Origin: Lactiplantibacillus daoliensis
GTDB lineage: Bacteria; Bacillota; Bacilli; Lactobacillales; Lactobacillaceae
DNA length: 64,000 nucleotides
Reading direction: 5' to 3'
Assembly (NCBI RefSeq): GCF_005405005.1
Contig: NZ_BJDH01000002.1
Location: forward strand, 248,001 to 312,000
Numbering within the stretch: the first letter of the stretch is position 1; each line of letters starts with the position of its first letter. Positions 4,883 through 62,624 of this stretch are shown piece by piece. Position numbers and translations under genes: made by a program. A model generated the notes under the pieces. It had not been told where the DNA came from, made no database searches, and was given only the letters and a program-made list of their open reading frames with translations.

Positions 4883-5278
4883 CTAAAGGTTGAAAGACTC
4901 AAAAACATCACAAATGTCGCAGTACCAGTAACCGTCACATCTAAAGTAGACTTGCCCAATTTCGACTGACTCTGCTAAGTATCAATAAATTTATCAAAAA
5001 AGAACTACTGACTTAGCTGGAGGTTGTTACTGATAGCATCGGACGTGCAGGTGGCGTTTGGCCGGCGTTCTTTGCCGGACTTACACCACGGACGGTCTGG
5101 GAGATTTGCGCTTTTGGCAAAGCTTCCAGACGAGGTTCAAGACGTTCCTAAGGCTTGAACCGGTCCCTCGTCCGCATGTTATCTGCAACAACCAGAAGCG
5201 GCAGTAATCGACTAGTTTTCATGACCTGATTGTTGACGTAGTCATGCAGACCGGCAATTTTTAACTCTCAGCCTTCAA
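4883..5278 (+). mobile_element. MITE-like palindromic element, copy A (module 1 deleted)
   Basis: Left terminal repeat CTAAAGGTTGAAAG at 4883-4896 and right end CTCTCAGCCTTCAA at 5265-5278. Both are flanked by an exact 8-bp direct repeat CTTATTTA (4875-4882 and 5279-5286). Module 2 is intact: outer arms near 5021-5045 and 5169-5193 enclose three hairpins. Module 1 is reduced to a joint near 4962, where the left flank runs straight into ACTGACTCTGCTAAG. No coding capacity. The right target repeat contains the TAA stop of the hydrolase gene. Confidence 0.9.
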
Positions 5279-5279
5279 C

Positions 5280-6203
5280 TTATTTAATATATTGTGCTAA
5301 AAAGTCGGCGACTGATCGTTTATAAGCTGGGTAGTTTTGCGTAATTGCTGTGGTATGACCAGCCCCTTTGACTAACCACAACGCTTTAGGTTCGTGTGCT
5401 TGTCGAAATAGGTCTTTACTCATCCGCGTCGGCACAAAGTCATCTTTTGTCCCGGCAATCATCATAATTGGCAGTTTGTTTTTGCGCACCTGCTTGACCG
5501 CATCCGCCTCACCAAACGTATAACCAGCGCGTAACTTTGTAATTGCACTCGTCACGTCAACCAACGGAAACGCTGGCAGATGATACAACTGTCCCGCCTG
5601 ATAACTAATAATTGCCTTAGCACTAGTAAACGGACTATCCACCACATACGCCTTGATCTGTGGAATTTGCCGTTCGCCACTCGCCATCGTCATGCCAGCT
5701 GCACCCATACTGATACCACTCATCACAATCTGAGTCGTAGCCGTCTTTTTGACCACCGTCTTGGCCCACTGCAAATCATCTTTGCGCTCCAACCAGCCAT
5801 ACCCGATGGCCGTTCCTTGACTCGCACCACTCGCTCGCGAATCTGGAACTAACACATTGTAACCGAGTTCGTGATACATGCCAGCCCATGCGCCCATCAG
5901 CGACTTGTTGCCAGCAAAGCCATGCGCGAGGACGACCGTTTTCTTAGATCCCGTTTTGGGTAAATACCAAGCGATGAGCTTCAAGCCATCCGAAGATTTG
6001 ATCGTCCAAGTCTGTTTCTTAGCATGTAAATACCAATACTTTTCCGCATAGACCTGACTCTTCTTCGATAGCGTCGTACTCTGTGTGACGAAAGACTTGT
6101 CCCCACGAGCAATGGCCACATGATAAAAATAACTTCCCGCCCCAATCAGCCCACCAATCAGGATAACGAACACCACACCAATTGCAATCAACCATTTTTT
6201 CAT
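5280..6203 (-). CDS. Membrane-anchored alpha/beta hydrolase (307 aa)
   Basis: One N-terminal transmembrane anchor (residues 4-28), then an extracellular alpha/beta hydrolase fold. Strand-turn LAHGFAGNK near 92-100 forms the oxyanion region, nucleophile S165 lies in SGISMGAAG, Asp is in AGTKDDFVP and His in GAGHTTAI near the C-terminus. The ATG at 6203 (MKKWLIA) was chosen over an in-frame start at 6251 because it directly precedes the anchor. Substrate unknown. The stop codon lies inside the target-site repeat of element A. Confidence 0.85.
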   Translation of the reverse strand: MKKWLIAIGVVFVILIGGLIGAGSYFYHVAIARGDKSFVTQSTTLSKKSQVYAEKYWYLHAKKQTWTIKSSDGLKLIAWYLPKTGSKKTVVLAHGFAGNKSLMGAWAGMYHELGYNVLVPDSRASGASQGTAIGYGWLERKDDLQWAKTVVKKTATTQIVMSGISMGAAGMTMASGERQIPQIKAYVVDSPFTSAKAIISYQAGQLYHLPAFPLVDVTSAITKLRAGYTFGEADAVKQVRKNKLPIMMIAGTKDDFVPTRMSKDLFRQAHEPKALWLVKGAGHTTAITQNYPAYKRSVADFLAQYIK

Positions 6204-6300
6204 TACCACTTCAACCTCAGATTCTGATAGAAATATTGCCACTACCAACATAATAACGTTTATAATTAAAGATAACTAGAAAACATTTGGAGGAGTTGCC

Positions 6301-8103
6301 ATGCACTATTCAGAAACGTGGGACTTGGACAGCATTTTCCCAGGCGGCATTGACTCGCCAGCACTGAAAAAAAAGTTGACCACCATTAAACAACAGCTAC
6401 ACGAAACGGAGACCACGTTAGCTAACTGGCGGGCTGACGCTGATACACCCGACTATGACTGGTTCCAACAAATCGTCACTGATTTGCAGGCCATTGAGGC
6501 AGGACTCGCCCAGTGCGAAGTTTTCGTCGTTGCCATTCAATCTGCCAATGCCAGCGATACTAAGGCTGGGATCGTGTTGAATCAGCTCTATCAGCTGGAT
6601 AACGACCACGAACAGTTGATGACCCAGTTTAAAAAGCAACTTGTGCAACTCTCACAGGAAACCTTTGCAAAATTGATTGCTCATCCAGAACTTCAATCGA
6701 TAGCCTTCAACCTGACTGAAATGCGTAAACAGGGCTTAGCCCTACTCGACAGTCAGACCGAGGCGTTAATCAACAATTTGGCCGTCGATGGCTTTCAGGG
6801 TTGGAGCGATCACTACGATACCTTAGTCAGTCAAATGAAGATCAAGTACACCGATGAAACTGGTCATACTCAGACTTTGTCGGCCGGTCAGGCACAAAAC
6901 CGACTTGCGGCCGCCATGCCAAACCAGCAACGCGCCGATTTGATGGCAAATTGGGAACAAGCTTGGCAACTAAATGCCGCCCCTTTTGCCGACACCTTAA
7001 ATCATTTGGCTGGGTTCCGGTTGCAAGACTATCAAGCACACGGCACTACTAACTTTTTGCGCAAGCCGCTGGAACTCAATCGCATGAGCCAAGCAACCTT
7101 AGATACGATGTATGCCGTGGTTGACCGCAACAAGGGAATGCTGCTACATTACCTGCAACGTAAAGCTGCCTTGATGGGCAAAAAACAAGTGGACTGGCAA
7201 GATTTGGAAGCGCCCCTCACACTTGGTACGGCCACCAATACCCAGACATACGATGAAGCCGCCGATTTTGTCATCAGTAACTTTCAGAAATTCAGTCCCA
7301 AAATGGCGAAACTCGCTACCTATGCGTTTGAACATCGCTGGATTGAGGCCGAAGACCGGCCTAACAAACGGCCAGGTGGTTACATGGATAATTTGCCAGA
7401 AACCAAAGAATCTCGGATTTTCATGACCTTCACGGGATCACCAAATGATACAGCGACCTTGGCGCATGAACTGGGCCATGCTTTTCACGCAGATGTGATC
7501 AAAGACCTACCATTCTGGCGACAAGATTATGCCATGAATGTGGCGGAAACTGCATCGACCTTTGCCGAGCTGATTGTCGCAGACGCTAACGTTAAGGCCG
7601 CGACTGATCCCAAAACCAAGTTGAACTTGTTAGATGCCAAAATGCAAAATCCATTAGCAATGTTCTTGGATATCCATGCTCGTTACTTATTCGAAACGCG
7701 ATTCTATCAGGCACGGTTGCAACATGTCGTTACCCCAACTGAGCTTTCAGCACTCATGGAACAAGCGCAAAAAGACGCTTACGACAATGCCCTAAGCACC
7801 TATCATCCAATGTTTTGGGCTAGCAAATTACATTTTTACATCTCAGATGTGCCGTTCTACAACTTTCCATATACCTTTGGCTATTTATTCAGTCTTGGAA
7901 TCTACGCTCAAGCAAAACACGACGACCATTTTGAAGACCGCTACATTGCTTTGTTACGGGATACCGCTAATATGTCGACCGAAGCACTCGCGAAAAAACA
8001 TCTCGGCGTAGATCTAACTAAACCTGATTTTTGGCAAGCCGGGGTTGCCTTAATCAAGCGTGATATTGATGAATTCATGGCGTTATCCGCGCCACTATTA
8101 TAA
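6301..8103 (+). CDS. pepF: Oligoendopeptidase F family metallopeptidase (M3B, 600 aa)
   Basis: Cytoplasmic zinc peptidase that trims short peptides. The zinc motif HELGHAFH starts at H389, with ligands H389 and H393 and catalytic E390. The third ligand is expected in NVAETASTFAE about 25 residues on. Length matches the usual 600 residues of PepF. The N-terminal PepF domain covers about residues 110-185. GGAGGA precedes the ATG at 6301. It heads a likely operon with the XRE and methyltransferase-like genes (17 and 9 base gaps). Confidence 0.93.
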   Translation: MHYSETWDLDSIFPGGIDSPALKKKLTTIKQQLHETETTLANWRADADTPDYDWFQQIVTDLQAIEAGLAQCEVFVVAIQSANASDTKAGIVLNQLYQLDNDHEQLMTQFKKQLVQLSQETFAKLIAHPELQSIAFNLTEMRKQGLALLDSQTEALINNLAVDGFQGWSDHYDTLVSQMKIKYTDETGHTQTLSAGQAQNRLAAAMPNQQRADLMANWEQAWQLNAAPFADTLNHLAGFRLQDYQAHGTTNFLRKPLELNRMSQATLDTMYAVVDRNKGMLLHYLQRKAALMGKKQVDWQDLEAPLTLGTATNTQTYDEAADFVISNFQKFSPKMAKLATYAFEHRWIEAEDRPNKRPGGYMDNLPETKESRIFMTFTGSPNDTATLAHELGHAFHADVIKDLPFWRQDYAMNVAETASTFAELIVADANVKAATDPKTKLNLLDAKMQNPLAMFLDIHARYLFETRFYQARLQHVVTPTELSALMEQAQKDAYDNALSTYHPMFWASKLHFYISDVPFYNFPYTFGYLFSLGIYAQAKHDDHFEDRYIALLRDTANMSTEALAKKHLGVDLTKPDFWQAGVALIKRDIDEFMALSAPLL

Positions 8104-8120
8104 TGAATGGAAGTGAGCAC

Positions 8121-8534
8121 ATGTTTCCAGAACGTTTACGCGCCTTACGCCGAGGTCAAAAAATGACGCTCGGTGAGCTGGCAACTGCGTTAAATCATTT
8201 ACCTGATGCAGACTTGACTCGAAATAATACCGCCGCACAAATTGGTAACTGGGAGCGCAACTTACGGACGCCATCCTATTTGGAAGTCCGTAAGTTAGCT
8301 GAATACTTCCACGTGACGACTGATTATTTATCTGGCCAGGCCGACCAAGAAGAATACGATTTGGGTCGAATTTTTCTCTCAGGCAAACCGTTGACCTTCA
8401 ATCAGGAACACCTCTCTGGTGAAGACCGCTATGAACTGTTCCAGTTGATGAACGGCTACTTACATGGTCGTCAACAACGCGCTGTTCCTGACGATAACGG
8501 TCAAGAAGAACTTGACTTACACTTTGACAACTAG
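8121..8534 (+). CDS. XRE-family regulator with HTH_3 domain (137 aa)
   Basis: Helix-turn-helix at residues 1-67: the N-terminal helix FPERLRALRRGQKMTLGEL and recognition region AAQIGNWERNLRTPSY fit HTH_3/Cro-type domains, followed by YLSGQ. The 70-residue tail is acidic and ends in DLHFDN. GGAAGTGAG before 8121 supports this start rather than the ATG at 8103, which overlaps the pepF stop. Located between pepF and a methyltransferase-like gene; target unknown. Confidence 0.85.
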   Translation: MFPERLRALRRGQKMTLGELATALNHLPDADLTRNNTAAQIGNWERNLRTPSYLEVRKLAEYFHVTTDYLSGQADQEEYDLGRIFLSGKPLTFNQEHLSGEDRYELFQLMNGYLHGRQQRAVPDDNGQEELDLHFDN

Positions 8535-8543
8535 GAGTTTTAC

Positions 8544-9401
8544 ATGAATCCCAAGAAATTAAAACAATTGAAAAAGCGCACTAAAAAACAGTCAACTAAG
8601 GCCGCCCCATACATTGAACAGCTCAATCATTACCGCGAGTTATTCAAAGATGACCCCCAGATTCTTGTGTTGTTAAATAATGCGATTGAAGCTGATCGCT
8701 TACTAGCAGCTGGCTTAGCGCCACAACAATTACCCCTGCTAGAAGTTCCTGACAACTTTCAGGAGCAACTGATCAAACGGATCAATGCCAACTATCCATT
8801 ACACGATCCTGCCGGTGATGCGGAATGGAATCAACTTTCAGCGGCCTTACCAAAGGTTGATCAACTTCTGCGTAATTTCCGCGACTACCTTGAAGATCAA
8901 TACGGGATGTGGGCTTACATCAGTGCGCCTTTCCTCAAAGACTTAGCGGACTTTATTGGCAACGGTCCCGTTTTAGAAGTGATGGCCGGCAACGGATATA
9001 TTTCTAAAGGCTTGAGCCGATTGCATCCGAGCCAAGAAATCATCACGACTGACTCGAAGGCTTGGACAAAAGAAGCCAACAACGAAACTGGGAAACACCC
9101 CGTGACCACGATTGAAGGCTTAGACGCAGTCACCGCCTTTGAAAAGTACGCGGATCAAATCACTTATGTCATTATGGCTTGGTCCCCCGATAAGCTCACG
9201 CTAGATTGGGAGTTACTGCAAGCGATGCGGGCTAGTGACCGCCAGATTCCGCTGATTTGTATTGGTGAAAAGTACGGTGCCACCGGTTCCAAGCAATTTT
9301 GGGATAATGCCCATTATCGTGACGATACCGCAGTTGAAAAACTAAACAGTCACTATCGCCCGTTTGACTTGATTCATGATCAAGTCTACGTCGTCGATTA
9401 A
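8544..9401 (+). CDS. SAM-dependent methyltransferase-like protein (285 aa)
   Basis: The segment VLEVMAGNGYISKGLS (about residues 145-160) matches methyltransferase motif I (E/D-x-G-x-G), and IITTDS about 17 residues later fits the acidic motif II end. The first 120 residues are helical and Lys-rich at the N-terminus. No catalytic motif reveals the substrate. Translationally close to the XRE gene (9-base gap, RBS GGAG). The fold call is good; enzymatic activity is inferred. Confidence 0.7.
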   Translation: MNPKKLKQLKKRTKKQSTKAAPYIEQLNHYRELFKDDPQILVLLNNAIEADRLLAAGLAPQQLPLLEVPDNFQEQLIKRINANYPLHDPAGDAEWNQLSAALPKVDQLLRNFRDYLEDQYGMWAYISAPFLKDLADFIGNGPVLEVMAGNGYISKGLSRLHPSQEIITTDSKAWTKEANNETGKHPVTTIEGLDAVTAFEKYADQITYVIMAWSPDKLTLDWELLQAMRASDRQIPLICIGEKYGATGSKQFWDNAHYRDDTAVEKLNSHYRPFDLIHDQVYVVD

Positions 9402-9403
9402 CC

Positions 9404-9453
9404 AAAAGAAGCTGAAACAGCCTGGACTAACCAAACTGTTTCAGCTTCTTTTA
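9404..9453 (+). terminator. Intrinsic terminator of the pepF operon
   Basis: AAAAGAAGCTGAAACAG and CTGTTTCAGCTTCTTTT form a perfect 17-bp stem around a 16-base loop; T-rich 3' end. Confidence 0.92.
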
Positions 9454-9462
9454 AATATAAAT

Positions 9463-9999
9463 CTAAATACATATGGTGATATGTCAAGTAACCGTTACCC
9501 CTAAAGTGGACTTATCCAGATTCAGCGCTCCGCCAGTCAGAATCGGTGTGCTGTGGGGGACGGTGCCAGCCAAAGTACGGTCTGCCGCCTCAATTCAAAG
9601 CCGATAAAACACGTCTTTGAATTGCCCCACAAGATTAGTCAGCCAATAGCGCCGACTAATTTTGCCGACACTGCACACCGATTCTGACTGACTCCGCTAA
9701 AATAACTGTTTTATCCAAAAAAGAACTACGAACTTAGCTGGAGGTTATTGCTGATAGCATCGGACGTGCAGGTGGTGTAAGACTGGCGTTCTTTGCCGGT
9801 CTTACACCACGGACTGTCCGGGAGATTTGCGGTTTGTGCAAAACTTTCGGGCGAGGTTCAAGACGTTTCTAAGGCTTGAACCGGTCCCTCGTCCGCATGT
9901 TATCAGCAATAACCGGAAGCGGCAGTAATCGCCTAGTTTTCACCGTCTAATTATTGACACAGTGGCGCAGAACGACAATTTTCAACTTTCAACCTTCAG
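9463..9999 (+). mobile_element. MITE-like palindromic element, copy B (both modules)
   Basis: Right terminal repeat CTTTCAACCTTCAG at 9986-9999. The left terminus is eroded, starting at CTAAA (9463). TATAAAT flanks both ends (9456-9462 and 10000-10006). Module 1 outer arms lie near 9523-9553 and 9668-9699 and hold the CAATTCAAAG/CTTTGAATTG hairpin. Module 2 arms lie near 9741-9766 and 9889-9914 and hold three hairpins. It sits between two convergent genes. No open frame of note. Confidence 0.88.
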
Positions 10000-10062
10000 T
10001 ATAAATACAAATCATTATTTTAAGATTTAAAAACTAGCAGTCTTTTAAGAACACTCATCACG

Positions 10063-10557
10063 CTAACTTTGTATGAACAAGCTAATCAAAGTCACAACAC
10101 TAACTAACACGAGCACAACTAAGTAACTGAAAAACCAGCGCGTTGCAACATCATCCGGTGCAATCCGCCGCTGTGCAGTTGTCCGCGCACCGGCTCCTAA
10201 TAAAATCAATGAATAAGTACACAGTCCCAAAGCACCCACGTAGGTCGTCAGCACCCAATGTGGATTTTGCTGGAGACGGCCAATCTGTCCCAGCACTAAG
10301 AATAGTAACCCAACGGCAGTCGGTAGCAGACAAGTCGCACGCTGAATCGCTTCCGTTGCTCGGATATTGATAAGTGGGAAAATTAAAAAAGACCGTAAAA
10401 TACAAAAAATACCCAGGATTAAAACTGGAATTGAAAGACCAACTAAATACAAGTTATGATAATTCACTGGTCGTATCAGCGCTTGATAAATAATCAACAG
10501 ACCTAGATAAAAGTAAAAGCGACGATAAAATGAAACTGGTCGATTTAAGTGCATCAT
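10063..10557 (-). CDS. Membrane protein of unknown function (164 aa)
   Basis: Not recognised. Five hydrophobic segments at roughly residues 15-35, 38-60, 72-95, 100-125 and 140-162, with positively charged short loops (RTTAQRRIAP). No soluble domain. ATG at 10557; downstream lie element B and a convergent operon. It shares orientation and character with the next small membrane protein, but a 117-base gap separates them. Confidence 0.65.
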   Translation of the reverse strand: MMHLNRPVSFYRRFYFYLGLLIIYQALIRPVNYHNLYLVGLSIPVLILGIFCILRSFLIFPLINIRATEAIQRATCLLPTAVGLLFLVLGQIGRLQQNPHWVLTTYVGALGLCTYSLILLGAGARTTAQRRIAPDDVATRWFFSYLVVLVLVSVVTLISLFIQS

Positions 10558-10674
10558 CCTCAGCTCACTTTCAAGACTTTTCCAGATTATAGCACCGATG
10601 GCTCACCAGAACATCCCGAAAGCCACGGTCAAGATCCGTCACTAGTCCAATGAGCATACGGCAACTTTCAAATC

Positions 10675-10965
10675 TTAATTATGTGCCATCAAATAAATAC
10701 TGATCAAAACAATCAGTGCCCACACCCCACCTAAGTAACCATAAATGAGCTTTTCCGAACCACTAAAATGCTTCTCACCGCGCATGGCTTTACCAATCCC
10801 CCCGACAAAAAACAGAATAATTGAATATAGCCCCAAGCCCACCATGCTAAAAGCAACCCAGTTCTCCCAGCCAGTTTGACTCGACCCCCGTAAATACAGG
10901 CCATAGCCCAACGTAAAAAACATGATCAAAGTTGGATTGATTAACCATTTCATTGCCCTACGCAT
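10675..10965 (-). CDS. Small membrane protein of unknown function (96 aa)
   Basis: Three predicted transmembrane helices (residues 8-25, 35-58 and 72-94) joined by a charged loop GKAMRGEKHFSGSEK. No known motif. The start could be the ATG at 10965 or the internal ATG at 10953. The former has GTAGGGATGACGG upstream. Confidence 0.6.
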   Translation of the reverse strand: MRRAMKWLINPTLIMFFTLGYGLYLRGSSQTGWENWVAFSMVGLGLYSIILFFVGGIGKAMRGEKHFSGSEKLIYGYLGGVWALIVLISIYLMAHN

Positions 10966-11150
10966 CCGTCATCCCTACTCTCTTAATGTTTAGACTAAGT
11001 TTACTCTTGTTGAGGATATTAACCAATTGTTTACAGGATTACACTTTCTCAAAATGTTTGCTTAATTACCAATTTAATAATCTTCGTTGTCTTCTGCAAA
11101 CGAGTGGTCTAAACTAGCTTCACATTCAAACTAAAGGGAGTTGGGGACCG

Positions 11151-11576
11151 ATGCGATTATTGGGACATCTCATTGCAGACTACTTATGGGGATTAGTTGG
11201 TTTCATCATTATTTTTTATTTTATCACGGCGCGACCGGACGGCAGTTTCCACTTAATCTGGAATCTACCCAATTTATATTTAACCACCTCCTATATATTC
11301 GCCTATCCGGCCTTGATGGCTTGGGTCCCAGGCTTACGAACTGGCAAACTCAAAACTCAATCAATGGCCAGCCACTCCTCGGCAGCGGATTTAAAATACT
11401 CACAAGGCAATGTCACTAATCCCATTGCCAACAAATATGATTTGAATTTTCGAAACAATTTACGTGATGACAGGATGAATTTCAGCTTTCTATTGCTTGA
11501 ACGCACCGTTTTAATGGCACTAGCGACGCCAATTTTAATTTTAGTCGCCGGTATCAAAGGGGCACAAAATTTCTAA
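11151..11576 (+). CDS. Membrane protein of unknown function (141 aa)
   Basis: GGGAGTTGGGG upstream of the ATG at 11151 supports the start. Two N-terminal helices (about 5-27 and 38-60), a polar middle rich in Ser/Asn (residues 65-110) and a C-terminal helix (about 115-136). Middle-region SQGNVTNPIANKYDLNFRNN has no recognised family. Monocistronic. Confidence 0.6.
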   Translation: MRLLGHLIADYLWGLVGFIIIFYFITARPDGSFHLIWNLPNLYLTTSYIFAYPALMAWVPGLRTGKLKTQSMASHSSAADLKYSQGNVTNPIANKYDLNFRNNLRDDRMNFSFLLLERTVLMALATPILILVAGIKGAQNF

Positions 11577-11580
11577 ATTA

Positions 11581-11620
11581 AAACGCTCAGTTCCGACTAA
11601 GTCAGAACTGGGCGCTAATT
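11581..11620. terminator. Bidirectional hairpin between convergent genes
   Basis: CGCTCAGTTCCGAC / GTCAGAACTGGGCG with a 3-base loop. The minus-strand side is followed by TTTTAATTT, so it mainly serves the hydrolase gene at 11621-12406. Confidence 0.8.
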
Positions 11621-12406
11621 TCAACCAATAATATGTTGTTGTAAAAAAGCAACGGCAGCTTGATGCATCTTGTGTGGCACATGATGTGCGCCACCAGTGG
11701 CGTGCTTGAATACGGTTTGCTGCAAAGCATCAGTCCCCGCAAAACGTTGTTCAAAATCAGCAACGTATTTATAAGGTACCATCGTATCAGCAGTGCCATT
11801 AAAGAAGAACATTGGCCGTCCAGCCAAGCGTTCAACCTGTTGTGACAAATCAAATTGACCAATTTGAGCATAGGTCTTGGTCAATAAGTCCGCCGGTAAT
11901 TGGGCTAACAGCTCGGCTGGAATCTGCGCAACTTGATCTTTCGCAAAGGCGACTGGTTCTGGGGACCCAATCAGTGACACACCGGCAACGATCTGTGCTT
12001 GCGTTGCCATAATTCCCGCCGCGGTAATCCCACCCATGGAGGTCCCCATGACGCCAATCTTCTCGGGATCTGACATACCGCTCGTCACGAGTGCCTCCAC
12101 GAGCCGCGGAAACTCAGTAACTGAGTGACCGACAATTTCCCAGAAACGTTCTGGATGCCGGTCTAAATCAGTGCCGTCACTGCGGCTACCGTGCAAGTAT
12201 GCGGTTGGCAAAATAACGCGGAAGCCTGCCTGAACCAACTGATAGCTGGCTACTAATTCGGACGACGTTGGCGTCGTCCAGCCATGATAATCAATAATCG
12301 TTGGGAGTTTCGTTTGTGCTTGACTCGCTGCAAACACGTGTAACACTGGTAGATCGTCCAACTTAATCGCACGGACAATCACATCTTCAAAGACAATCGT
12401 TGTCAT
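11621..12406 (-). CDS. Alpha/beta hydrolase, dienelactone-hydrolase/prolyl-oligopeptidase-like (261 aa)
   Basis: Cytoplasmic single-domain hydrolase. IIDYHGWTT near residue 38 gives the oxyanion strand, nucleophile Ser is in GVMGTSMGGITA near 120, Asp in NGTADTMVP near 205 and His in GGAHHVPH near 240. Three in-frame starts lie close together; GGTGATG before the last favours 12406 (MTTIVFED). Substrate unknown. Separate from the next gene by about 65 bases. Confidence 0.83.
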   Translation of the reverse strand: MTTIVFEDVIVRAIKLDDLPVLHVFAASQAQTKLPTIIDYHGWTTPTSSELVASYQLVQAGFRVILPTAYLHGSRSDGTDLDRHPERFWEIVGHSVTEFPRLVEALVTSGMSDPEKIGVMGTSMGGITAAGIMATQAQIVAGVSLIGSPEPVAFAKDQVAQIPAELLAQLPADLLTKTYAQIGQFDLSQQVERLAGRPMFFFNGTADTMVPYKYVADFEQRFAGTDALQQTVFKHATGGAHHVPHKMHQAAVAFLQQHIIG

Positions 12407-12471
12407 TTTCATCACCATTTTCAGAATTAATAGTTAACAGTCTAACAGAGAATCACTGTTAAACCAATCAA

Positions 12472-12813: not shown

Positions 12814-12839
12814 TTTGATGCCCATCCTCACAAAGAAAA

Positions 12840-13784: not shown

Positions 13785-13830
13785 AATTATTTGCTCCATT
13801 CTATATTTAAGTTGCTTCATCAATAACTTA

Positions 13831-16445: not shown

Positions 16446-16779
16446 CTAAAGGTTGAAAGACTCAGAAGCATCACAAATGTCGCAGTAACAGTAGCTCGTC
16501 TAAAGTAGACACACCTAAACTTAGCGCTCCGTCAGTCAAAATCGGTGTGCTGTGGGGGGGGACGGCGTTTCGTGCCGGCCTTACACCACGGACGGTCCGA
16601 GAGATTTGCGGTTTTTGCAAAGCTTCCGGGCGAGGCTCAAGACGTTTTTTCAGGCTTGAACCGGTCCCTCGTCCGCATGTTATCGGCAACGACCGGAAGC
16701 GGCAGTAGTCGACCAGTTTTCATTACCGGATTGTTGACGTAGTGGTGCAGACCGGCAATTTTTAACTTTCAAACTTTAG
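16446..16779 (+). mobile_element. MITE-like palindromic element, copy C (internally deleted, 334 bp)
   Basis: CTAAAGGTTGAAAG at 16446-16459 and CTTTCAAACTTTAG at 16766-16779 flanked by an exact 8-bp repeat TTTCTCAT (16438-16445 and 16780-16787). An internal deletion joins the left arm of module 1 (ending at a run of G near 16551-16560) to the middle of the first hairpin of module 2. Located between convergent genes. Confidence 0.93.
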
Positions 16780-18903: not shown

Positions 18904-19319
18904 AAAACATCACAACTAAAGTTGGCTCACCTAAATTTAGCGCTCCGTCAGTCAAAATCGGTGTGCTGTGAGGGACGGCGCCAGCCACAGTACGGTCTGA
19001 CCCCTCAATTCCGAGCCGATAAACCCGTCTTTGAATTGCCCCGCGAGATTAGTCAGCCAAGAACGCCGACTAATTTCGCCGACACTGCACACCGATTTTG
19101 ACTGACTCCGCTAAGCGCAAATAACTACTGACATAGCGGGAGGTTGTTGCTGATATCATCGGACGTGCAGGTGGCGTTTGACCGGCATTTTTGCCGGTCT
19201 TACACCACGGACGGTCCGGGAAATTTGCGGTTTTGGCAAAGTTTCTGGGCAAGGTTCAAGACGTTTCTCAGGCTTGAACCGGTCCCTCGTCCGCATGTTT
19301 TCAGCAACAACCGGAAGCA
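18904..19319 (+). mobile_element. MITE-like palindromic element, copy D (both ends lost)
   Basis: Modules 1 and 2 are complete (arms near 18935-18967, 19080-19115, 19140-19166 and 19288-19312), but the left terminal repeat is degraded and the right end stops after CCGGAAGC. A stretch of about 25 bases between ACATCACAA and CTAAAG is missing compared with copy E. The sequence CACAACTAAA occurs at 18911-18920 and again at 19321-19330, probably marking a recombination event. Confidence 0.8.
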
Positions 19320-44765: not shown

Positions 44766-44973
44766 AAAAAAAGAGCGAGCCGACTGTATAAATACAGTTA
44801 GCTCGCTCTAGTCACGGCGCTGGCAAAAAACCAACGGGGGTGACGCTCCACAACGTCATTGACCCAAACATTCCGAAATACGTCGGAAAAACATGTCCCG
44901 CTATCAATATTAGTCACAAGCCGCTCGCGCGGAACCACCATCACTGATGATCTGACTTTATCGACTCATCGCA
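44766..44973 (-). ncRNA. Candidate structured RNA with its own promoter and terminator (~208 nt)
   Basis: Minus strand promoter: -35 TTGCAA (45003-45008), 17 bases, -10 TAGAGT (44980-44985). The RNA would contain CCGC-GCGA-GCGG (GNRA tetraloop), TTCCGA/TCGGAA and GTCAC...CGTTGG/CCAGCG...GTGAC stems, and ends with AGAGCGAGC/GCTCGCTCT plus T-run. No open frame. Either an independent small RNA or a leader of the secreted-protein gene. Family not recognised. Confidence 0.55.
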
Positions 44974-54244: not shown

Positions 54245-54267
54245 CTTAAATCTCCTCCTATGACAAC

Positions 54268-54535: not shown

Positions 54536-54631
54536 AGTCTTATTTAACTTTTGTCAGCGTATCACAAAAAGACACGAAATACAACTTGGGCACGACTGAC
54601 AAGTCATGAATTTTGGCAACGTGTTATCAAC

Positions 54632-54681
54632 AAAAACTGCGATCAACTAACAAGCACAGCTCGTTAATCAATCGCAGTTTA
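54632..54681 (-). terminator. Terminator of xpk
   Basis: Minus strand AAACTGCGATTGATTAACGA...GTTAGTTGATCGCAGTTTTTG: 15-bp stem with T-run. Confidence 0.9.
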
Positions 54682-54709
54682 ATTAGCTTAGTTTAAATTC
54701 CTGAACAGC

Positions 54710-57076
54710 TTATTTCAAGCCTTTCCATTGCCAGTCATTAACCTCTGGCAAGTCGGTCCCAGCATCCCGAATGTATGCGTTGTGCTTAGCTAACATGTTA
54801 TCCATGTCTTGAACAAAGGCTGCGCCGGTATCTTCCATTGCTGGTTGCGCCGCAATCGCTGCTTTTGCCAAGTCGAAACGGTCCATTTGGTTCATGACCC
54901 GCACATCGAATGGGGTCGTAATATCCCCATTTTCACGGTAACCATGCACATGAAGATTGTGGTTATGACGATCAAAGAAGATGTCACGAACCAAGTCTTC
55001 ATAGCCATGGAAAGCAAAGATAACTGGTTTATTCTTCGTAAAGTAATGGTCGAATTCTTCATCTGACAAGCCTCGAGGATCTTTCTCAGGACTCCGTAAC
55101 TTCAACAGGTCAACCACGTTCACAAACCGAATCTTCATGTCAGGGAAACTGTCATGCAACAATTGAACCGCGGCTAATGCTTCCAAAGTTGGTTCAGTCC
55201 CAGCAGTAGCGAAGACAATATCTGGTTCACTGCCTTGATCGGTACTTGCCCAATCCACGATACCTAAGCCATTATCAACCAATTGTTTAGCTTCTTCAAT
55301 GCTGAACCATTGTTGACGTGGGTGCTTGGAAGTAACCACGTAATTAATTTTTTCTTGGCTTCGGAAAATAACGTCACCAACGGCTAACAACGTGTTCGCA
55401 TCAGCTGGCAAGTATTCGCGGATATATTCAGGTTTCTTTTCAGCCAAATGAGTCAAAGCACCAGGATCTTGGTGGGTGTAGCCATTATGATCTTGTTGGA
55501 AAACAGTTGAAGCCGCAATGATGTTCAATGATGGGTACTTGTTACGCCAATCAAGTTCATTAGCTTTCCGTAACCACTTGAAGTGTTGCGTCAACATTGA
55601 ATCCACGACCCGTAAAAAGGCTTCATAGCTTGCAAACAGACCATGACGACCAGTTAAGACGTAACCTTCTAACCAGCCTTCAGCTTGATGTTCAGATAAC
55701 TGAGCATCTAAAACTCGGCCAGCTGGGGCTTCAAATTGATCACTGTCTGGATGAATGTCTTCCAGCCATTGACGGTTAGTCGCTTCAAAAATACCATAAA
55801 GCCGGTTAGACATGGTTTCATCAGGTCCGAACAAGCGGAAGTTATCAGGATTTTTCTTGATCACATCACGCAGATAATCTGACCAAACGATCATGTCTTG
55901 CTTAACATTTTCGCCGCGCTTAGTTGTATCAACAGCATAATCACGGAAGTTAGGTAAGTTCAAGGCCTTTGGATCAACCCCACCATTGGTGATTGGGTTA
56001 GCAGCCATGCGACTCTGACCAGTTGGAATAATGGCCTTGATATCATCCTTCAAAGTCCCATCTTCATTGAAAAGTTCTTCTGGTTTATATGATTCCAGCC
56101 AGTCAACTAAGGCTTCTGAATGTTCCATATCGTTTTGATCAACAGGAATTGGAATTTGATGGGCTCGGAATGAGCCTTCAATCTTTTCACCATCCCATGA
56201 CTTAGGACCGGTCCAGCCTTTAGGAGCGCGGAAAACGATCATTGGCCAAGTTGGTAAACTTGGATCATTGTTTTCACGAGCATTCTTTTGAATGGCCTTG
56301 ATCTTTTCAATCGCTTCATCCATGGCTTTTGCCAATAATGGATGAACCTTTTCAGGATCGTCACCAGTGACAAAGATTGGTTCCCAATTCATGCTTTCGA
56401 AGTATTTCGCGAGCTTTTCATCTGAAGTCCGACCAAAGATGGTTGGGTTAGAAATCTTGAAACCATTTAAGTTTAGGATTGGTAAAACTGCCCCGTCGTT
56501 GATTGGGTTGATGAACTTCGTGGATTGCCATGAAGTTGCTAATGGGCCAGTTTCGGATTCCCCGTCACCAACGACAACGGCGGCGATTTCGTCTGGGTTA
56601 TCTAAGATTGCACCGGTACCATGTGAGATCGAATAACCAAGTTCACCACCTTCGTGGATTGAACCAGGTGTTTCAGGGGCAGCATGAGAAGCCACACCAC
56701 CTGGGAATGAGAATTGTTTGAACAACTTCTGCATCCCTGCCTTGTCCTGCGTAATTTCAGGATAAATATCGGTATAGGTCCCATCCAAGTATGAATTAGA
56801 AACCATCACTTGGCCACCATGACCGGGACCTTCAACGTAGAACATCTTCAAGTTATATTTATTAATGACACGGTTTAAATGCGCGTAAATAAAGTTTTGT
56901 CCGGCAATCGTACCCCAATGGCCGATTGGATGGACCTTAACGTCGCTCGCTTTTAATGGTTGTTGTAATAATGGATTATCTTTTAAATAAAGTTGACCAA
57001 CGGATAAGTAGTTGGCAGCCCGCCAATACTTGTCAACTTCTTGCAAATATGCTGGTGATGAGTAATCTGTAGCCAT
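54710..57076 (-). CDS. xpk: Xylulose-5-phosphate/fructose-6-phosphate phosphoketolase (788 aa)
   Basis: Key enzyme of the heterolactic/pentose pathway: splits xylulose-5-P (or fructose-6-P) with phosphate to acetyl-P and glyceraldehyde-3-P (or erythrose-4-P). TPP motif [14 protein letters not shown] near residue 180, phosphate/TPP regions [13 protein letters not shown] and YVEGPGHGG near 55-90, and Mid/C-terminal domains with [15 protein letters not shown]. Exact usual length. The ATG at 57076 follows AAGGAG. A palindrome at 57178-57195 and the nearby gntR suggest GntR control. Confidence 0.97.
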
Positions 57077-57177
57077 ATTCAAAACACTCCTTAATTTGCT
57101 TTAAGTTATTGTCTGTAACCGACATTGTTTACAAGTACTATCTTAACAGCTTACTTGTAAAAATCAACCTTTTTGTC

Positions 57178-57195
57178 AATTGGGACGGTCCAATT
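57178..57195. promoter_or_regulatory. Probable GntR operator in the xpk promoter region
   Basis: AATTGGGACGGTCCAATT, a dyad of AATTGG/CCAATT just upstream of TTGACA (minus strand). The gntR-ybaK intergenic region carries the same half-sites (GGTCC...AATTGGGAC) and a shared ACGACTA. Confidence 0.65.
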
Positions 57196-57221
57196 AAAAC
57201 GACTAATTTTATTGTGATACA

Positions 57222-57774
57222 TAAAGGGTGTAAGACTCAAAAACATCACAAATGTCGCAGTACCAGTAACCGTTACGTTTAAAGTAGAATTTAGCGCTCC
57301 GTCAGTCAGAATCGGTGTACTGTGGGGGACGGCACCAGCCAAAGTCCGGTCTGCCACCTCAATTCCAAGCCGATAAAACACGTCTTTGAAGTGCCCCGCA
57401 AGATTAGTCAGCCAAGAACGCCGACTAATCTTGCCGACACTGCACACCGATTCTAACTGACTCCGCTAAGCATAAATAACAGATTTTATCTCTTGAAAAC
57501 CACTGATTAGCTGGAGGTTGTTGCTGATAACATCGGACGTGCAGGTAGCGTTTGACCGGCGTTCTTTTAGCCGACCTTACACCACGGACGGCTCGGAAGA
57601 TTTGCGGTTTTGGCAAAGTTTCCGAGCGAGGTTCAAGACGTTTCTACGGCTTGAACCGGTCCCTCGGCCGCTTGTTATCAGCAACAACCGGAAGTGGCAG
57701 TTATCGACTAGTTTTCATTACCTAATCGTTGATGTCCACGTGCAGACTGGCCATTTTTAACTTTCAACCTTTTG
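57222..57774 (+). mobile_element. MITE-like palindromic element, copy E (full length)
   Basis: Left end TAAAGGGTGTAAG, right end CTTTCAACCTTTTG (57761-57774); GTGATA occurs directly outside both ends (57214-57219 and 57775-57780), a decayed target repeat. Module 1 arms near 57291-57321 and 57436-57468, module 2 arms near 57524-57548 and 57664-57690. Inside module 2 a hairpin CTCGGAAGATTTGC/GCAAAGTTTCCGAG keeps pairing by changes on both sides relative to other copies. Confidence 0.9.
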
Positions 57775-57783
57775 GTGATATAT

Positions 57784-57821
57784 AAAAACCAGCATCAACC
57801 CTAGGGTGACACTGGTTTTTA
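57784..57821 (-). terminator. Terminator of the gntR gene
   Basis: AAAAACCAG(C)...CTGGTTTTT stem with inner CCCT/AGGG; T-run on the minus strand. Confidence 0.85.
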
Positions 57822-57830
57822 TCGATACCA

Positions 57831-58559
57831 TTATTGTTCAGTTGAGACAAATGTTGTATATTTCATATACTTGTAATGCAGGCGCATATTGGAGACCTCA
57901 AACGGGGTTCCATCATCAAGAAAGAAAATCCCGCCCATGACGCCAACTGGCTCGGTGGCCTTCAGAGAAAGTAATTTTTGATCCGTTGCCGTCGAAACAT
58001 CCGCCGAAATCGATAAGAAAGATTTAGTCACCGCCGACTTTAGCGCTTTTTGCACATATGAAAAGATTGAACCACTCACAATTTGTCGATTCAGTTCAGG
58101 GACAAGTTTAATCGGAATATAACCCGTTTCAATCATAAAAGGTTGCTCGTCCAATAGCCGCAACCGTTTGATTTCATAAACAAATTCATCCGGAGCTAAA
58201 AATAAATCTTGTTGCAACTCTTGACTTGCAGGAATCACCTGAAAGTCTAATAATTGAATACTGGGTTGTGCCCCTTCTGTATTTAAACTATCTGTAATTC
58301 CTAAATTTGTGCCTTCATACTTAAATGAAGATTGATTTTTAAGATATAATGGATTAATAAACGTTCCTGAACCCCGCTTCTTGAAAATGAGCCCTTGATT
58401 GGCTAACACGTTGAGGGCCCGCTTAATAGAACTACGGCTCACTTGGTACTGTTCACTGAGGCTCCGTTCATCTGGTAATTTCTTATCAACAAATTCATTG
58501 GCCATAATACGTTTGTTAAGGTCTGTGATTACTTGTTGATAAACTAAATCTGCCATCAT
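57831..58559 (-). CDS. GntR/HutC-family regulator with UTRA domain (242 aa)
   Basis: GntR winged helix at residues 1-70 (KLPDERSLSEQYQVSRSSIKR, GLIFKKRGSGTF) and UTRA ligand domain at 95-235 (IKRLRLLDEQPFMIETGYIP). Effectors of this class are usually sugar phosphates. GAGGAGG before the ATG. Its promoter region shares half-sites with the xpk promoter, so xpk and ybaK are candidate targets. Confidence 0.92.
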   Translation of the reverse strand: MMADLVYQQVITDLNKRIMANEFVDKKLPDERSLSEQYQVSRSSIKRALNVLANQGLIFKKRGSGTFINPLYLKNQSSFKYEGTNLGITDSLNTEGAQPSIQLLDFQVIPASQELQQDLFLAPDEFVYEIKRLRLLDEQPFMIETGYIPIKLVPELNRQIVSGSIFSYVQKALKSAVTKSFLSISADVSTATDQKLLSLKATEPVGVMGGIFFLDDGTPFEVSNMRLHYKYMKYTTFVSTEQ

Positions 58560-58628
58560 GATTCCTCCTCGTCTTTGATTTGCTAACTAGAGTATAGCAG
58601 AAATTTGACGGTCTGCGTGAATTGCACC

Positions 58629-58650
58629 GGTCCATTTTAAAAATTGGGAC
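58629..58650. promoter_or_regulatory. Probable GntR operator between gntR and ybaK
   Basis: Half-sites GGTCCATTTT and AATTGGGAC face each other, followed by ACGACTATTTTAATTGG; the same words occur at 57178-57220. Confidence 0.6.
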
Positions 58651-58679
58651 GACTATTTTAATTGGTGAGGATGAATAAC

Positions 58680-59186
58680 ATGTCAAAAAAGCGTAAAAAC
58701 AAAGACGGCTTAGGCAAAACCTTAGTTGAGAAGATTTTGGATAAGGCTAATATCAGTTATCAACAATATGAATTTCCAACCAAAACCGAGGGTGACGTTG
58801 AACAATTGCAAGTCGACCATCTGGGCGTTGACGAACATCATATTTACAAAACCCTCGCATTGATTGGCAATAAAACTGGACCATTAGTTGGCGTTTTGCC
58901 TATCGATGAACATCTGAGTTATAAAAAATTAGCCAAATTGTCCGGCAACAAAAAGGTCGGAATGATTCCGTTGAAAGACTTGGAACGCACTACCGGTTAT
59001 GAACATGGTGCTAATACTCCGGTGGGAATTTGGGAAACTAAAAAGTTCCCGATTTACTTAAATGACAGTGCCAAAAAGCAAGGTCAAATCTTAGTCTCGT
59101 CTGGTAAGATCGGTCGCTCCATCGAAATCGACGCCGATGATTTACGTAAATTAGTCCACGGGACCTTTGGCGAAATAACGGAGTGA
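58680..59186 (+). CDS. ybaK: YbaK-type Cys-tRNA(Pro) deacylase (168 aa)
   Basis: INS/YbaK editing domain: YKTLALIGNKTGPLVGVLPID with the conserved Lys near 52, then LSGNKKVGMIPL, GYEHGANTPVG and a final LVSSGKIGRSIEID. Removes mischarged Cys from tRNA-Pro. GGTGAGGATG upstream favours the ATG at 58680 over in-frame starts at 58662 and 58671. Followed after 4 bases by the membrane HELSH protein. Confidence 0.9.
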   Translation: MSKKRKNKDGLGKTLVEKILDKANISYQQYEFPTKTEGDVEQLQVDHLGVDEHHIYKTLALIGNKTGPLVGVLPIDEHLSYKKLAKLSGNKKVGMIPLKDLERTTGYEHGANTPVGIWETKKFPIYLNDSAKKQGQILVSSGKIGRSIEIDADDLRKLVHGTFGEITE

Positions 59187-59190
59187 TGAC

Positions 59191-59979
59191 TTGGCACAAT
59201 TTATCTGGAACCTCCTATTAGTACTTTTTACTTTATTGGGATTACCGGCTGGATTGGCTTGGTTGCTAACCATCGTTAATCGCCATACTAAAGCAAACTT
59301 AGTCAATCGATACGGCATCAACAGCCAAGTTTATCTGGGTTGCTTAGGTATTATGATTCACGAACTGAGTCATTTAATCTTGGCAGTCGTTTTCCATCAT
59401 CACATTCAATCAGTGCGACTCCTCAAATTACCGCACCTAAATCAGGATACTGGCGCTCCTGAAGATCTCGCACTGGGTTATGTGAATCATACTTGGAGTC
59501 AGTCAAGTATCTATCAAAATGTCGGCAATTTATTCATCGGCGTTGCACCAATCTTCGGCTGTACCGCTAGCTTGCTAGGCTTAGATGCCCTACTCTATCC
59601 AGGCTTAGCCCAAGCCATCTTCCGACTAGCTGATCATCCCTTCGATCCAGATTGGTCCGGCAGTTGGACGGCTTTAACGACCAACGTCAGTAGCTGGTGG
59701 CAATTATTATTATTGCTTATCCTAACAATTCTAATCGTTATCGGTGGTTTTGATCTCAGCCCCGCCGACTACCAGAATAGTTCATTAGGCTTATCCACGA
59801 TGTTGATTTTCTTAACTGTCGCCACTATTATTTTTTCGATTTTTGATCAGCAAGCGCCCATCATTTTAAAGGCGATCACCTCATTTGGCTTCACATTAGC
59901 CATGATTCTAGGCTATTCACTCCTAGTTTCAATTGTGGTAATGCTGATTACGCGGTTACTACCGCAACGACGACGCTAA
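59191..59979 (+). CDS. Multi-TM membrane protein with an HExxH motif (262 aa)
   Basis: Seven or so hydrophobic segments. GIMIHELSHLILAVVFHHH near residue 60 places a zinc-peptidase type HELSH in a membrane helix, as in M50 site-2 proteases; the second metal-binding (NxxPxxD) motif is not clearly seen. TTG start behind GGAGTGATGAC. In an operon with ybaK. Activity is inference. Confidence 0.72.
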   Translation: MAQFIWNLLLVLFTLLGLPAGLAWLLTIVNRHTKANLVNRYGINSQVYLGCLGIMIHELSHLILAVVFHHHIQSVRLLKLPHLNQDTGAPEDLALGYVNHTWSQSSIYQNVGNLFIGVAPIFGCTASLLGLDALLYPGLAQAIFRLADHPFDPDWSGSWTALTTNVSSWWQLLLLLILTILIVIGGFDLSPADYQNSSLGLSTMLIFLTVATIIFSIFDQQAPIILKAITSFGFTLAMILGYSLLVSIVVMLITRLLPQRRR

Positions 59980-60014
59980 AAAGGCTCAGGGAAAAATTCC
60001 CTGAGCCTTTTTTT
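59980..60014. terminator. Bidirectional terminator
   Basis: AAAGGCTCAGGGAA/TTCCCTGAGCCTTT with T-run. Confidence 0.93.
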
Positions 60015-60047
60015 AACCAGTCATAATTTGATTAATCAGGCCAACCG

Positions 60048-61928
60048 TTATTTGACCATTTCTGTATGCGTCGCCTTAGCTAACTTTTCAACTAAGGAGA
60101 TGCCGGGATTCAAATCTGCATTACCATTCGTATAAATGGCAATCACATACCCTTGTGGATCCTGTTTACTATAGACATGACCGATACTATCCACAATCCA
60201 ACTATTATCAGCCTCACTTAGCCAACCATTCTTCAACTGATACTTAGAAGCACCGCTTGAAATTCCCCAAGTCTGTTCAGTGCTAACAGTTCCCATCAAT
60301 TGTTGGACAGTTTGTCGCGATTCTTTTGACAAATAATCTTTTTGATAATAAATCATCCGTAGTAATTTAACTTGATCAGCTGCCGTTGTCTGTGTGTGTC
60401 CCCAGTGACCAGCGGCCATATCCTGAGTGTTCGTCATCTTCAAGTTTGAAAATAAGGTGTTCAAGTTTTGATAACCACCTAAACGACTATCAAGTAAAAA
60501 GGTGGCCGCGGCATTATCACTATTTTGCATCATGGTTGTCGCATTAGCCATATCGTTATCATCAAACGTCAAATTTCCTTGATCACGTTCATGCAAGACC
60601 TGTGTCAAGATACTAACTTTCACCGAACTGGCAGTGTAATATGGCGTTCCGCTGGGATCTTTGCTGTATTGATAAACTTGCTGCGTCTTTGGTGAATAAA
60701 CCGCAACATCAATTTTTTCACGATGTGGTGCGATGATTGTTTTCCAAGTAGTTTGTAATCGCTGGCCCAATTCAGGTTTTGCATTTACCTTCGCTGACGC
60801 TTGCTTTTTAGTTGTCACTTTCGTTGTTTTTACGTTTCTAGGATTAGCGGTGGCCGTTGATTGCTGTACTGAAAATACCCCTGTTACTGCAACTAAACAG
60901 CCTACTGCCACGGCCAAGAAGCGCCGCTGTTGTTTGGCACTGGCCCCGACACAGAATCGTTCAAAAAAGGTCAAGCTTAGTGCCCCGCAACCTAATGCGA
61001 GTATGGCGGCTACTATAAATTTCATGCTAGTTGTTTTAACTGGCAGCATCATGAAAAATGGCCAGAAAAATAAATAGCTCAGTACACCCCCACGTAAAAC
61101 TAAATCTGTGCCGGTGATTAGCCCTGCTTCATAAGACTTTTGAATCGTATAAACGATCAGTGCTGAACATAAACTGGCTAGTCCAAAAATGATTAAGCTC
61201 AGTCTGAGCCCTTTGAACTGTCCAAGACTGCCAAGTAACACGCCCACCAAGCCAATCAAGAATAGGCCTAAGTGAAAGGAAGTCGCCACAAAGACTTGCC
61301 GATGGCGCTGCTTGAAAAACTGCACTGCAATGATCGCCCCAAGTGAAAATGGCAATAAATAAGCGAAATTAATCAAGTCTTTAGCTGCCATCTCATTTTG
61401 ACTAGCAATAATAACCAAAACAATCAGGCTCACGCCACCCATCACTAGGATGTAACGATTGAAAGCACTGACAAAGTTTGTCGCCTGCTTCGTTGCGAGC
61501 CAAGCACCGATTAACCATAGTACTAAAAACAATAGGTAGGTCCAAAATGGCCATAAATGTGCCAACCAACTCGACCGAGCAATTGAACGACCATCCGTCT
61601 GCGTCAAATACGCAAACAAACTGGGGGCACCGTTCCCAAAGCTTGGCGTCAAATGATGATTAACACTTAAATCTAGCGGTACCATGATTAGAAATAACCA
61701 GAATATTCCCTGTAGAATAAACATGAATTCAGTTCTAATCAACCGAATGACGCCTTTTCCTGTCACCGCTTGGGACATATCAAAAAATTGTTGAGTCAAA
61801 AAGAACCCCAACAAACAAAACACTAACGTAAAACTAATTAACTCACCACTAAAATTGCCTCGTAACAGATTAATTAGCACTAATCCAACGGTTACCCCGC
61901 CGATGCCTAACCACTTATCACCCTTCAA
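60048..61928 (-). CDS. Fusion of a multi-TM (acyltransferase-3-like) domain and a class A beta-lactamase-like domain (626 aa)
   Basis: Ten hydrophobic segments (1-350), reminiscent of the OatA-type acyltransferase-3 membrane part, then an extracellular serine-hydrolase domain: S-x-x-K in ASSVKVSIL near 433, SDN in QNSDNAAA near 470 and KNG (for KTG) in YQLKNGWL near 567, all in order and spacing of class A beta-lactamases. Possibly a D,D-peptidase or esterase on the wall rather than an antibiotic resistance enzyme. TTG start with AAGG eight bases upstream. Confidence 0.8.
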   Translation of the reverse strand: MKGDKWLGIGGVTVGLVLINLLRGNFSGELISFTLVFCLLGFFLTQQFFDMSQAVTGKGVIRLIRTEFMFILQGIFWLFLIMVPLDLSVNHHLTPSFGNGAPSLFAYLTQTDGRSIARSSWLAHLWPFWTYLLFLVLWLIGAWLATKQATNFVSAFNRYILVMGGVSLIVLVIIASQNEMAAKDLINFAYLLPFSLGAIIAVQFFKQRHRQVFVATSFHLGLFLIGLVGVLLGSLGQFKGLRLSLIIFGLASLCSALIVYTIQKSYEAGLITGTDLVLRGGVLSYLFFWPFFMMLPVKTTSMKFIVAAILALGCGALSLTFFERFCVGASAKQQRRFLAVAVGCLVAVTGVFSVQQSTATANPRNVKTTKVTTKKQASAKVNAKPELGQRLQTTWKTIIAPHREKIDVAVYSPKTQQVYQYSKDPSGTPYYTASSVKVSILTQVLHERDQGNLTFDDNDMANATTMMQNSDNAAATFLLDSRLGGYQNLNTLFSNLKMTNTQDMAAGHWGHTQTTAADQVKLLRMIYYQKDYLSKESRQTVQQLMGTVSTEQTWGISSGASKYQLKNGWLSEADNSWIVDSIGHVYSKQDPQGYVIAIYTNGNADLNPGISLVEKLAKATHTEMVK

Positions 61929-62069
61929 ACCAATACCTTACAACATCCGTTCTCCAACCGAACTTCACCTTCAAAACAAGATGCGCCTTTCAAATATTAA
62001 TAATATATTAGTAATGTTACCATACAAACCAACTATTCCCAGTTACAGTTTGATGTCAAAATAACTTGA

Positions 62070-62624
62070 CTAAAGGTTGAAAGTTAAAAATTGCTTGGCT
62101 ACACGATTACCTCAACAATCAGGTATCGTGCAGACTAGTCACTTACTACCGTTTCCGGTTGTTGCTGATAACATGCGGACGAGGGACCGGTCCAAGCCTG
62201 AGAAACGTCTTGAACCTCGCCCGGAAGATTTGCTAAAAACGCAAATTTTCCGGGCCGTCCGTGGTGTAAGTCCGGCAAAAGGTACGCCGGTCAAACGCCA
62301 CCTGCACGTCCGATGCTATCAGCAACAACTTCCGGCTAATCAGTGGTCTTTAAGAGATAAATCAGTTATTTATTGCTTAGCGGAGTCAGTCGAAAGCGGT
62401 GTACAGTGTCGGTAAGATTAGTCGGCGTTCTTGGCTGACTAATCTCGCGGGGCAATTCAAAGACGTGTTTTGTCGGCTTGGAACTGAGGCGTCAGACCGT
62501 ACCTCGGCTGGCACCGCCCCCCGGTTTTGGCTAACGGAGCGCTAAATTTAGGTGAGTCTACTTTAGACGTAGTAGTTACTGGTACTGGGACATTTGGGAT
62601 GCTTTTGAGTTTTTCAAGCTTTAG
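62070..62624 (-). mobile_element. MITE-like palindromic element, copy F (inverted, full length)
   Basis: Same element in the opposite orientation: CTAAAGGTTGAAAG at 62070-62083 is here the left end, TTTTCAAGCTTTAG at 62611-62624 the right. TAACTTGA and TGGCTTGA flank it (6/8 match). Both modules present; the GC-rich hairpin of module 2 reads GCCCGG/CCGGGC in the reference orientation. Lies between two minus-strand genes. Confidence 0.9.

Follow-up and report, generated by a model that had tools for sequence, protein, structure and literature searches.

Miniature inverted-repeat transposable elements (MITEs) are short and non-coding, they carry terminal inverted repeats (TIRs) and target duplications, and they occupy AT-rich intergenic sites, as set out in the accessible part of PMC10969869. 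For Streptococcus pneumoniae, the accessible part of PMC3049150 describes the modular BOX element, TIRs and target duplications in BOX and RUP, the position of SPRITE near the 3' ends of convergent genes, and strong folding. The repetitive extragenic palindromes (REPs) of E. coli are single hairpins of about 29-37 nt, and their mismatches are needed for cleavage by TnpA-REP (PMC8266576, excerpt); EFAR is only named in PMC3733652 (excerpt). In the case of integron attC, the available sections of PMC2727003 and PMC3053210 report a site which depends on the folding of one DNA strand, and in which the stem sequence varies while unpaired bases are important. Here we describe a repeat from a stretch of 64,000 nucleotides of Lactiplantibacillus daoliensis (contig NZ_BJDH01000002.1, positions 248,001 to 312,000, the whole of which is called the window below). 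The repeat is real, abundant and structurally conserved across genera, and its DNA-level mechanism is the interesting part. It probably represents a family of mobile DNA elements which are non-coding and non-autonomous, and in which MITE-type ends enclose a paired, folded interior similar to that of REPs and bacterial interspersed mosaic elements (BIMEs).

Six places of the window had been claimed as copies of one repeat in the original prediction, which was made from the letters of the DNA, and this was borne out, as the aligned pieces are 79-91% identical. The full element is about 550 bp long, it has 14-bp ends (CTAAAGGTTGAAAG) and 7-8 bp target duplications, and it contains two head-to-head copies of one module. 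The modules had been described as nested, but they lie side by side and are inverted relatives of each other. The absence of a conserved open frame was confirmed on 28 full-length elements of the window's own genome (G000), where the longest frames (55-118 codons) are scattered in position. TIRs, target duplications and a lack of coding capacity were all found, and in this respect the MITE-like interpretation is supported.

The target duplications are an addition to the original prediction. In the window they are exact and 8 bp long at 4883 and 16446, and 7 bp long with one mismatch at 57222. Among 46 end pairs of the own genome, two loci of which (L020 and L219) were entered twice with alternative left ends, repeats with at most one mismatch were of 7 bp in 15 cases and of 8 bp in 11 cases, while shuffled flanks gave means of 1.4 and 0.4 and, over 1000 shuffles, maxima of 6 and 4, respectively. 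Neither 5 bp (0 cases) nor 6 bp (2 cases) was enriched, and the counts for 9 and 10 bp were 2 and 0. The own genome thus holds further copies with defined ends, whose 7-8 bp duplications greatly exceed those of shuffled flanks, and the element was mobile in the past.

The module is about 147 nt long and is made of five helices: the outer stem P1, the helix P2 (GGAC/GTCC) which encloses the hairpins P3 and P4, and the hairpin P5. Read on the opposite strand, the second module proves to be related to the first, and both are built of the same parts. The outer stem is accompanied by a GGGACCGG-like start and by a hairpin whose loop is flanked by AGCC and GTCT; CCTCG and a second hairpin carrying this motif come next, and CGTCC and a third hairpin complete the module. 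The foot is conserved and GCCGCCTSCGG-like, whereas REP hairpins have a GTAG tetranucleotide at theirs. Covariation was measured in the alignment A2. The modules for it were chosen by a single-sequence fold giving the outer stem (230 of 247; the 17 without the stem were dropped) and then by length limits, which kept 189; these were reduced to 61 representatives, and after the omission of 5 of them by hand 56 diverse modules remained. In the consensus structure of A2, 29 of 33 pairs showed double changes. After manual addition of the GGAC/GTCC helix, 93.3% of the 2041 cells were paired and double changes occurred at 31 of 37 pairs. On each of the five measures 0 of 500 shuffles came up to these values, and the pairing dropped to 35-43% once the partners had been slid. 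Picking foldable modules inflates the share of paired cells, but it does not itself create double changes. The loop motifs are conserved while the helices covary strongly, and single mismatches are kept within the stems in the 56 sequences: C-T in 54 and 47 of them (P3 and P4, respectively) and A-A in 43 (P5). The neighbouring module pairs, drawn from the best 150 of 192 modules and from all 142 own-genome modules, were head to head in 94 of 96 cases, direct in 2 and never tail to tail.

The model built on the module alignments recovered the module in the window, in the own genome and in other genera. In the window it placed ten modules and not the twelve expected from two in every copy, since the copies at 4883 and 16446 hold one each; the weakest of the ten had an E-value of 3e-19 under covariance model R1. 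The 14-bp ends, which had been attributed to all six copies, are recognisable only on the right at 9463 and on neither side at 18904. The copy at 57222-57774 folded much better than shuffled sequences, with a z-score of -7.0 on one strand and of -7.3 on the other, matched by 0 of 100 shuffles in each case. As for the position of the copies, which had been called always intergenic, all of them sit between the larger open reading frames (ORFs) of the window, but short ORFs (80-112 aa) overlap the copies at 57222 and 62070. At 4865-4890 the sequence CAACCTTCAG lies 8 bp ahead of copy 1, so this copy may have landed beside the remnant of another element's end.

Positions of the element copies and their modules in the window. 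Scores are those of the covariance model; ends are given as matching positions of the 14-bp ends.
Feature	Position	Strand	Remarks
Element copy 1	4883..5278	+	396 bp, one module left; ends 14 + 10 of 14; exact 8-bp duplication CTTATTTA
Module 2 of copy 1	5034..5180	-	114.6 bits
Element copy 2	9463..9999	+	both modules; end on the right side only, 13 of 14
Module 1 of copy 2	9542..9682	+	104.2 bits
Module 2 of copy 2	9755..9901	-	104.4 bits
Element copy 3	16446..16779	+	334 bp, internal deletion; ends 14 + 13 of 14; exact 8-bp duplication TTTCTCAT
Remaining module of copy 3	16536..16681	-	83.3 bits, spans the deletion
Element copy 4	18904..19319	+	two modules; 14-bp ends unrecognisable on either side
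Module 1 of copy 4	18957..19096	+	97.4 bits
Module 2 of copy 4	19154..19299	-	109.6 bits
Element copy 5	57221..57774	+	full length, left end starting at 57221; ends 11 + 13 of 14; 7-bp duplication, one mismatch
Module 1 of copy 5	57311..57451	+	100.1 bits
Module 2 of copy 5	57528..57676	-	102 bits
Element copy 6	62070..62624	-	full length, reverse orientation; ends 14 + 12 of 14; duplication not found
Module 1 of copy 6	62395..62533	-	76.1 bits
Module 2 of copy 6	62170..62318	+	104 bits

A structure of this kind may be kept as DNA or as RNA, and the two can be told apart by the mispairs, since an RNA helix tolerates G-U and does not tolerate A-C. On the module's own strand G-T and A-C were counted 45 and 51 times in A2, and 121 and 111 times in A3, which consists of the best 150 of 192 matches fitted to the model. 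Since much of this balance may be due to decay after insertion, consensus sequences were also taken for 13 subfamilies of 4 or more members; their 439 pairs, 39 ambiguous ones having been left out, comprised 415 Watson-Crick, 7 G-T, 6 A-C and 11 other pairs. The tRNA control (5 G-T and 0 A-C of 125 pairs) contained only 6 tRNAs, therefore terminators were used instead. Among the terminator-like hairpins of the same loci, those interrupted by just one internal non-pair (n=142) had 86 G-T, 41 A-C and 15 other mispairs, which differs from A3 (p 0.005). In the own genome the one-sided changes were 61 G-T and 66 A-C in module 1, and 50 G-T and 92 A-C in module 2. The one-sided cells outnumbered the compensated ones, 176 to 54 in module 1 and 183 to 34 in module 2 (5 of the 142 modules fitted neither group), which indicates that the inserted copies decay mostly freely. 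The structure is kept between subfamilies, that is, among the copies which are still spreading. The equal rarity of G-T and A-C even in the consensuses, together with the uncompensated decay, argues for a structure needed as DNA by the spreading copies and not as RNA by the host. The simplest reading of these counts is that the folding of the DNA would matter for spreading.

The same counts bear on two other explanations of the covariation. According to the first, the module is a structured non-coding RNA (a regulator, an attenuator or a guide) carried by a mobile element, and selection acts on the transcript. Conserved loop motifs with very strong covariation are met in known RNA families as well, and many copies directly follow a gene, so that they could be transcribed by read-through. 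We regard such an RNA as unlikely, since the canonical strand has no excess of G-T over A-C, whereas the terminators of the same loci show one, the copies decay mostly uncompensated, and the element has no match in Rfam. According to the second, template switching copies one arm of a palindrome onto the other, and the covariation is a by-product of this correction with no selected structure behind it. Both the balance of G-T and A-C and a scarcity of one-sided changes between families would follow from such a process. It would hardly leave the identical stem mismatches listed above uncorrected in 54, 47 and 43 of the 56 sequences, nor does it agree with the conserved loop motifs, and the copy-specific double changes of the own genome are weakly complementary (9 against 6 that are not, and 8 against 6 that are not). 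This correction is therefore an improbable source of the pairing, more so than the RNA.

The flanks of the elements are AT-rich. Genes were called on both sides of 43 elements; the neighbours are convergent for 17 of these, co-directional for 21 and divergent for 5 (17 versus 5, p 0.017). Many elements are found 50-100 bp behind a stop codon and, in the examples read by eye, behind a terminator. Six element ends of the own genome overlap the end of a called gene by exactly 4 bp, thus the TAA inside CTAAAGG may serve as the stop codon of that gene.

The mechanism which we put forward for the element starts with a transposase that would be supplied in trans and would act at the CTAAAGG ends, giving a staggered insertion. 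In the moving copy the modules, according to their predicted fold, would have to fold as single-stranded or extruded DNA in order to be recognised by the transposase or by a helper, while the inserted copy would be free to decay. Since the modules face each other, each DNA strand carries one module in the canonical sense, and the head-to-head layout would allow either strand to present a correctly oriented one; if recognition is of the folded single strand, the element would work whichever strand is exposed. A more specific form of this proposal can be held only tentatively. The recognition site for a candidate recombinase or transposase might be a DNA cloverleaf, formed only when one strand folds into the five helices with their fixed mismatches, and the mirror-image pair would then give each strand one site. 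If true, this would be an unusually elaborate folded-DNA site, and it would underlie a repeat superfamily in Lactobacillales, in which the element with TIRs is one vehicle.

MITEs usually derive from insertion sequences (ISs) with the same ends. DDE_Tnp_1 (PF01609) was sought in 60 relatives and found in 38, and 30 loci were scanned for the ends. CT-starting ends and 7-8 bp duplications would presumably suit some IS4-family transposases; these loci did not show the ends. The own genome holds a single PF01609 fragment (L019, 1907-2269), which adjoins an element but lies outside its ends. Longer module pairs in which a gene might have been enclosed (L071, L056 and L087) were considered as candidates and rejected, being either two elements that flank a gene of the host or elements lacking any long frame. 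Since an autonomous partner was not found in the loci examined, we infer mobilisation by a transposase from the ends and the duplications. The comparison of two close relatives (G004 and G016) showed several junctions that are deletions inside shared copies and one where an element in G004 stands opposite other sequence in G016. One case of presence and absence was seen at window copy 1: G013 has an element there and G020 does not, but the G020 site is too diverged to read the duplication.

Several observations weigh against a DNA element moved by its ends. No clean insertion was seen in the 12 junctions inspected between G004 and G016. A transposase with these ends was not found in the 30 DDE_Tnp_1 loci, where the best end score was 11 of 14, a value that has no background score beside it. 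Equal G-T and A-C would also be expected from neutral decay or from the use of both strands as RNA, and the alignments A3 and A4 were fitted to the model. In module 2 the excess of A-C (92 versus 50, p 0.0005) goes towards pairs that would wobble on the opposite strand, and the proposal does not account for it. Finally, 45 of 48 Levilactobacillus modules are without the 14-bp end. Neither of the two results that the original prediction had named as refuting it was obtained in the sources searched. Its MITE-like reading is supported, but it had to be amended, as its two modules are one module in an inverted pair, the Levilactobacillus modules mostly have no such end, and two window copies lack one or both ends. 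For most copies in Levilactobacillus, the boundary that can be seen is a GCCGCCTGCGG-like motif where the outer stem has its foot. In other genera the 14-bp end was found outside the modules, at 11 or more of 14 positions, in 23 of 146 modules versus 1 of 132 control stretches, and its orientation was the same in all 23.

Copies which end at the module are many, and single modules occur in another family, which would suit a third explanation, namely that a Y1 transposase (IS200/IS605-type) moves the module as a REP-like unit, the TIR element being a later passenger arrangement. To our knowledge, Y1 enzymes do not make TIRs with duplications, and we count this against it. A mild association was observed: 29 genomes contain both a Y1 gene and the element, as compared with 20.3 expected (p 0.009, ancestry uncorrected). 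On the other hand, Y1_Tnp had no match in 39 of the 68 element-bearing genomes, and 0 modules were found within 30 Y1 loci. For these two reasons the repeat was not filed as REP/BIME; it is filed as MITE-like, with its parent element missing. REPs, too, are reported to be paired in inverse orientation and to require their mismatches (PMC8266576, excerpt), yet we give this explanation little credence, about as little as the palindrome correction.

The count of six copies is correct for the window, while the stretches of the own genome hold many more. With model R1, 142 modules were found in 82 own-genome sources including the window, forming 84 places, of which 58 have two modules; the window's six are among the 84. 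Since the stretches (approximately 237 kb besides the window) were chosen for module or end matches, the 84 places are a floor for the genome and not a density. Pattern searches of the own genome gave 67 matches for the second module at no more than 3 mismatches, and 0 when the pattern was read backwards, as well as 42 matches for the left end and 32 for the right end, with 0 for the reversed controls.

Among relatives, a DNA search with copy 5 gave matches in 12 of 41 genomes, all 12 being among the 21 genomes within the genus and none among the 20 outside it. The covariance model, with 12 candidates scored per genome, found the module in 68 of 251 Lactobacillaceae genomes and in 12 of 40 genera. 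A strict pattern scan of one genome per species (84,980 species) gave at least 120 stretches, and all the matches listed belong to Lactobacillaceae; the genera among them are Lactiplantibacillus, Levilactobacillus, Companilactobacillus, Furfurilactobacillus, Secundilactobacillus and unplaced Lactobacillus. When the order was sampled, 7 of 198 genomes gave matches; 4 of these genomes lie outside the family and had a single, weak match each (E 2e-11 to 8e-4). The genus of one of the four, Streptococcus-like to judge from its gene order, had one or two module matches in 9 of 59 genomes, and 8 of its 10 loci occupy one and the same gap between purE-like and purD-like frames (named by eye), as the long homology of their flanks indicates. 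A single-module cousin thus exists at low copy beyond Lactobacillaceae. In the genome of another family at least 2 further degenerate related palindromes are present at L197 1300-1625, in the same gap as the model match. A contig of 4936 bp (L163), which may be a virus or a stray piece of host DNA, was the sole strict-pattern match in 2.9 million viral contigs. The plasmid collection had no match to the window copy or to one other element, and the phage collection had none to the window copy or to another element.

In Rfam no family over the elements reached its gathering score, the window and L194-L198 having been searched at the gathering threshold and L001-L012 with E-values up to 5. The minus strand of the window contains at 44843-44973 the Ref68 / Lacto-3 RNA (RF02840; 90.3 bits, gathering score 44), which is unrelated to the repeat. 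The literature searched gave no description of such a repeat, and for EFAR it yielded work on other subjects; its coverage was mostly open-access, so absence from print does not follow. As far as these searches show, the repeat is undescribed in the sources consulted, and the statement that no named family was recognised stands for Rfam 15 and for this literature. An abundant repeat common to many lactobacilli makes it possible to test, in a natural setting, whether a mobile element keeps its structure at the level of DNA or of RNA, and it points to an enzyme not yet named for it. In practice, the covariance model allows the copies to be annotated, instead of being misread as short spurious ORFs, and the duplications allow insertions to be recognised.

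The element shares with REP / BIME and their TnpA-REP (RAYT) the many intergenic copies, the two inverse palindromic units and the kept stem mismatches, as far as the excerpt of PMC8266576 goes. It differs from them in its module of approximately 147 nt with five helices, lying inside 14-bp ends with 7-8 bp duplications, and most carriers are without a dedicated Y1 gene. Modularity is common with BOX, TIRs and duplications with BOX and RUP, the lean behind genes with SPRITE, and strong folding with this group in general, according to the accessible part of the source cited above; the sequence and the module plan are different, as judged by eye on unaligned consensuses. The likeness to integron attC, again by the sections available, is in how recognition might work, and it is an analogy and not kinship; neither an integrase nor cassettes were seen, though no search was aimed at them. 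With MITEs the element has in common its short, non-coding nature, the TIRs, the duplications and the AT-rich intergenic sites. In contrast to them, an IS with the same ends was not found in the 30 DDE_Tnp_1 loci, and the interior of the element consists of a pair of structural modules which covary and which occur in 12 genera.

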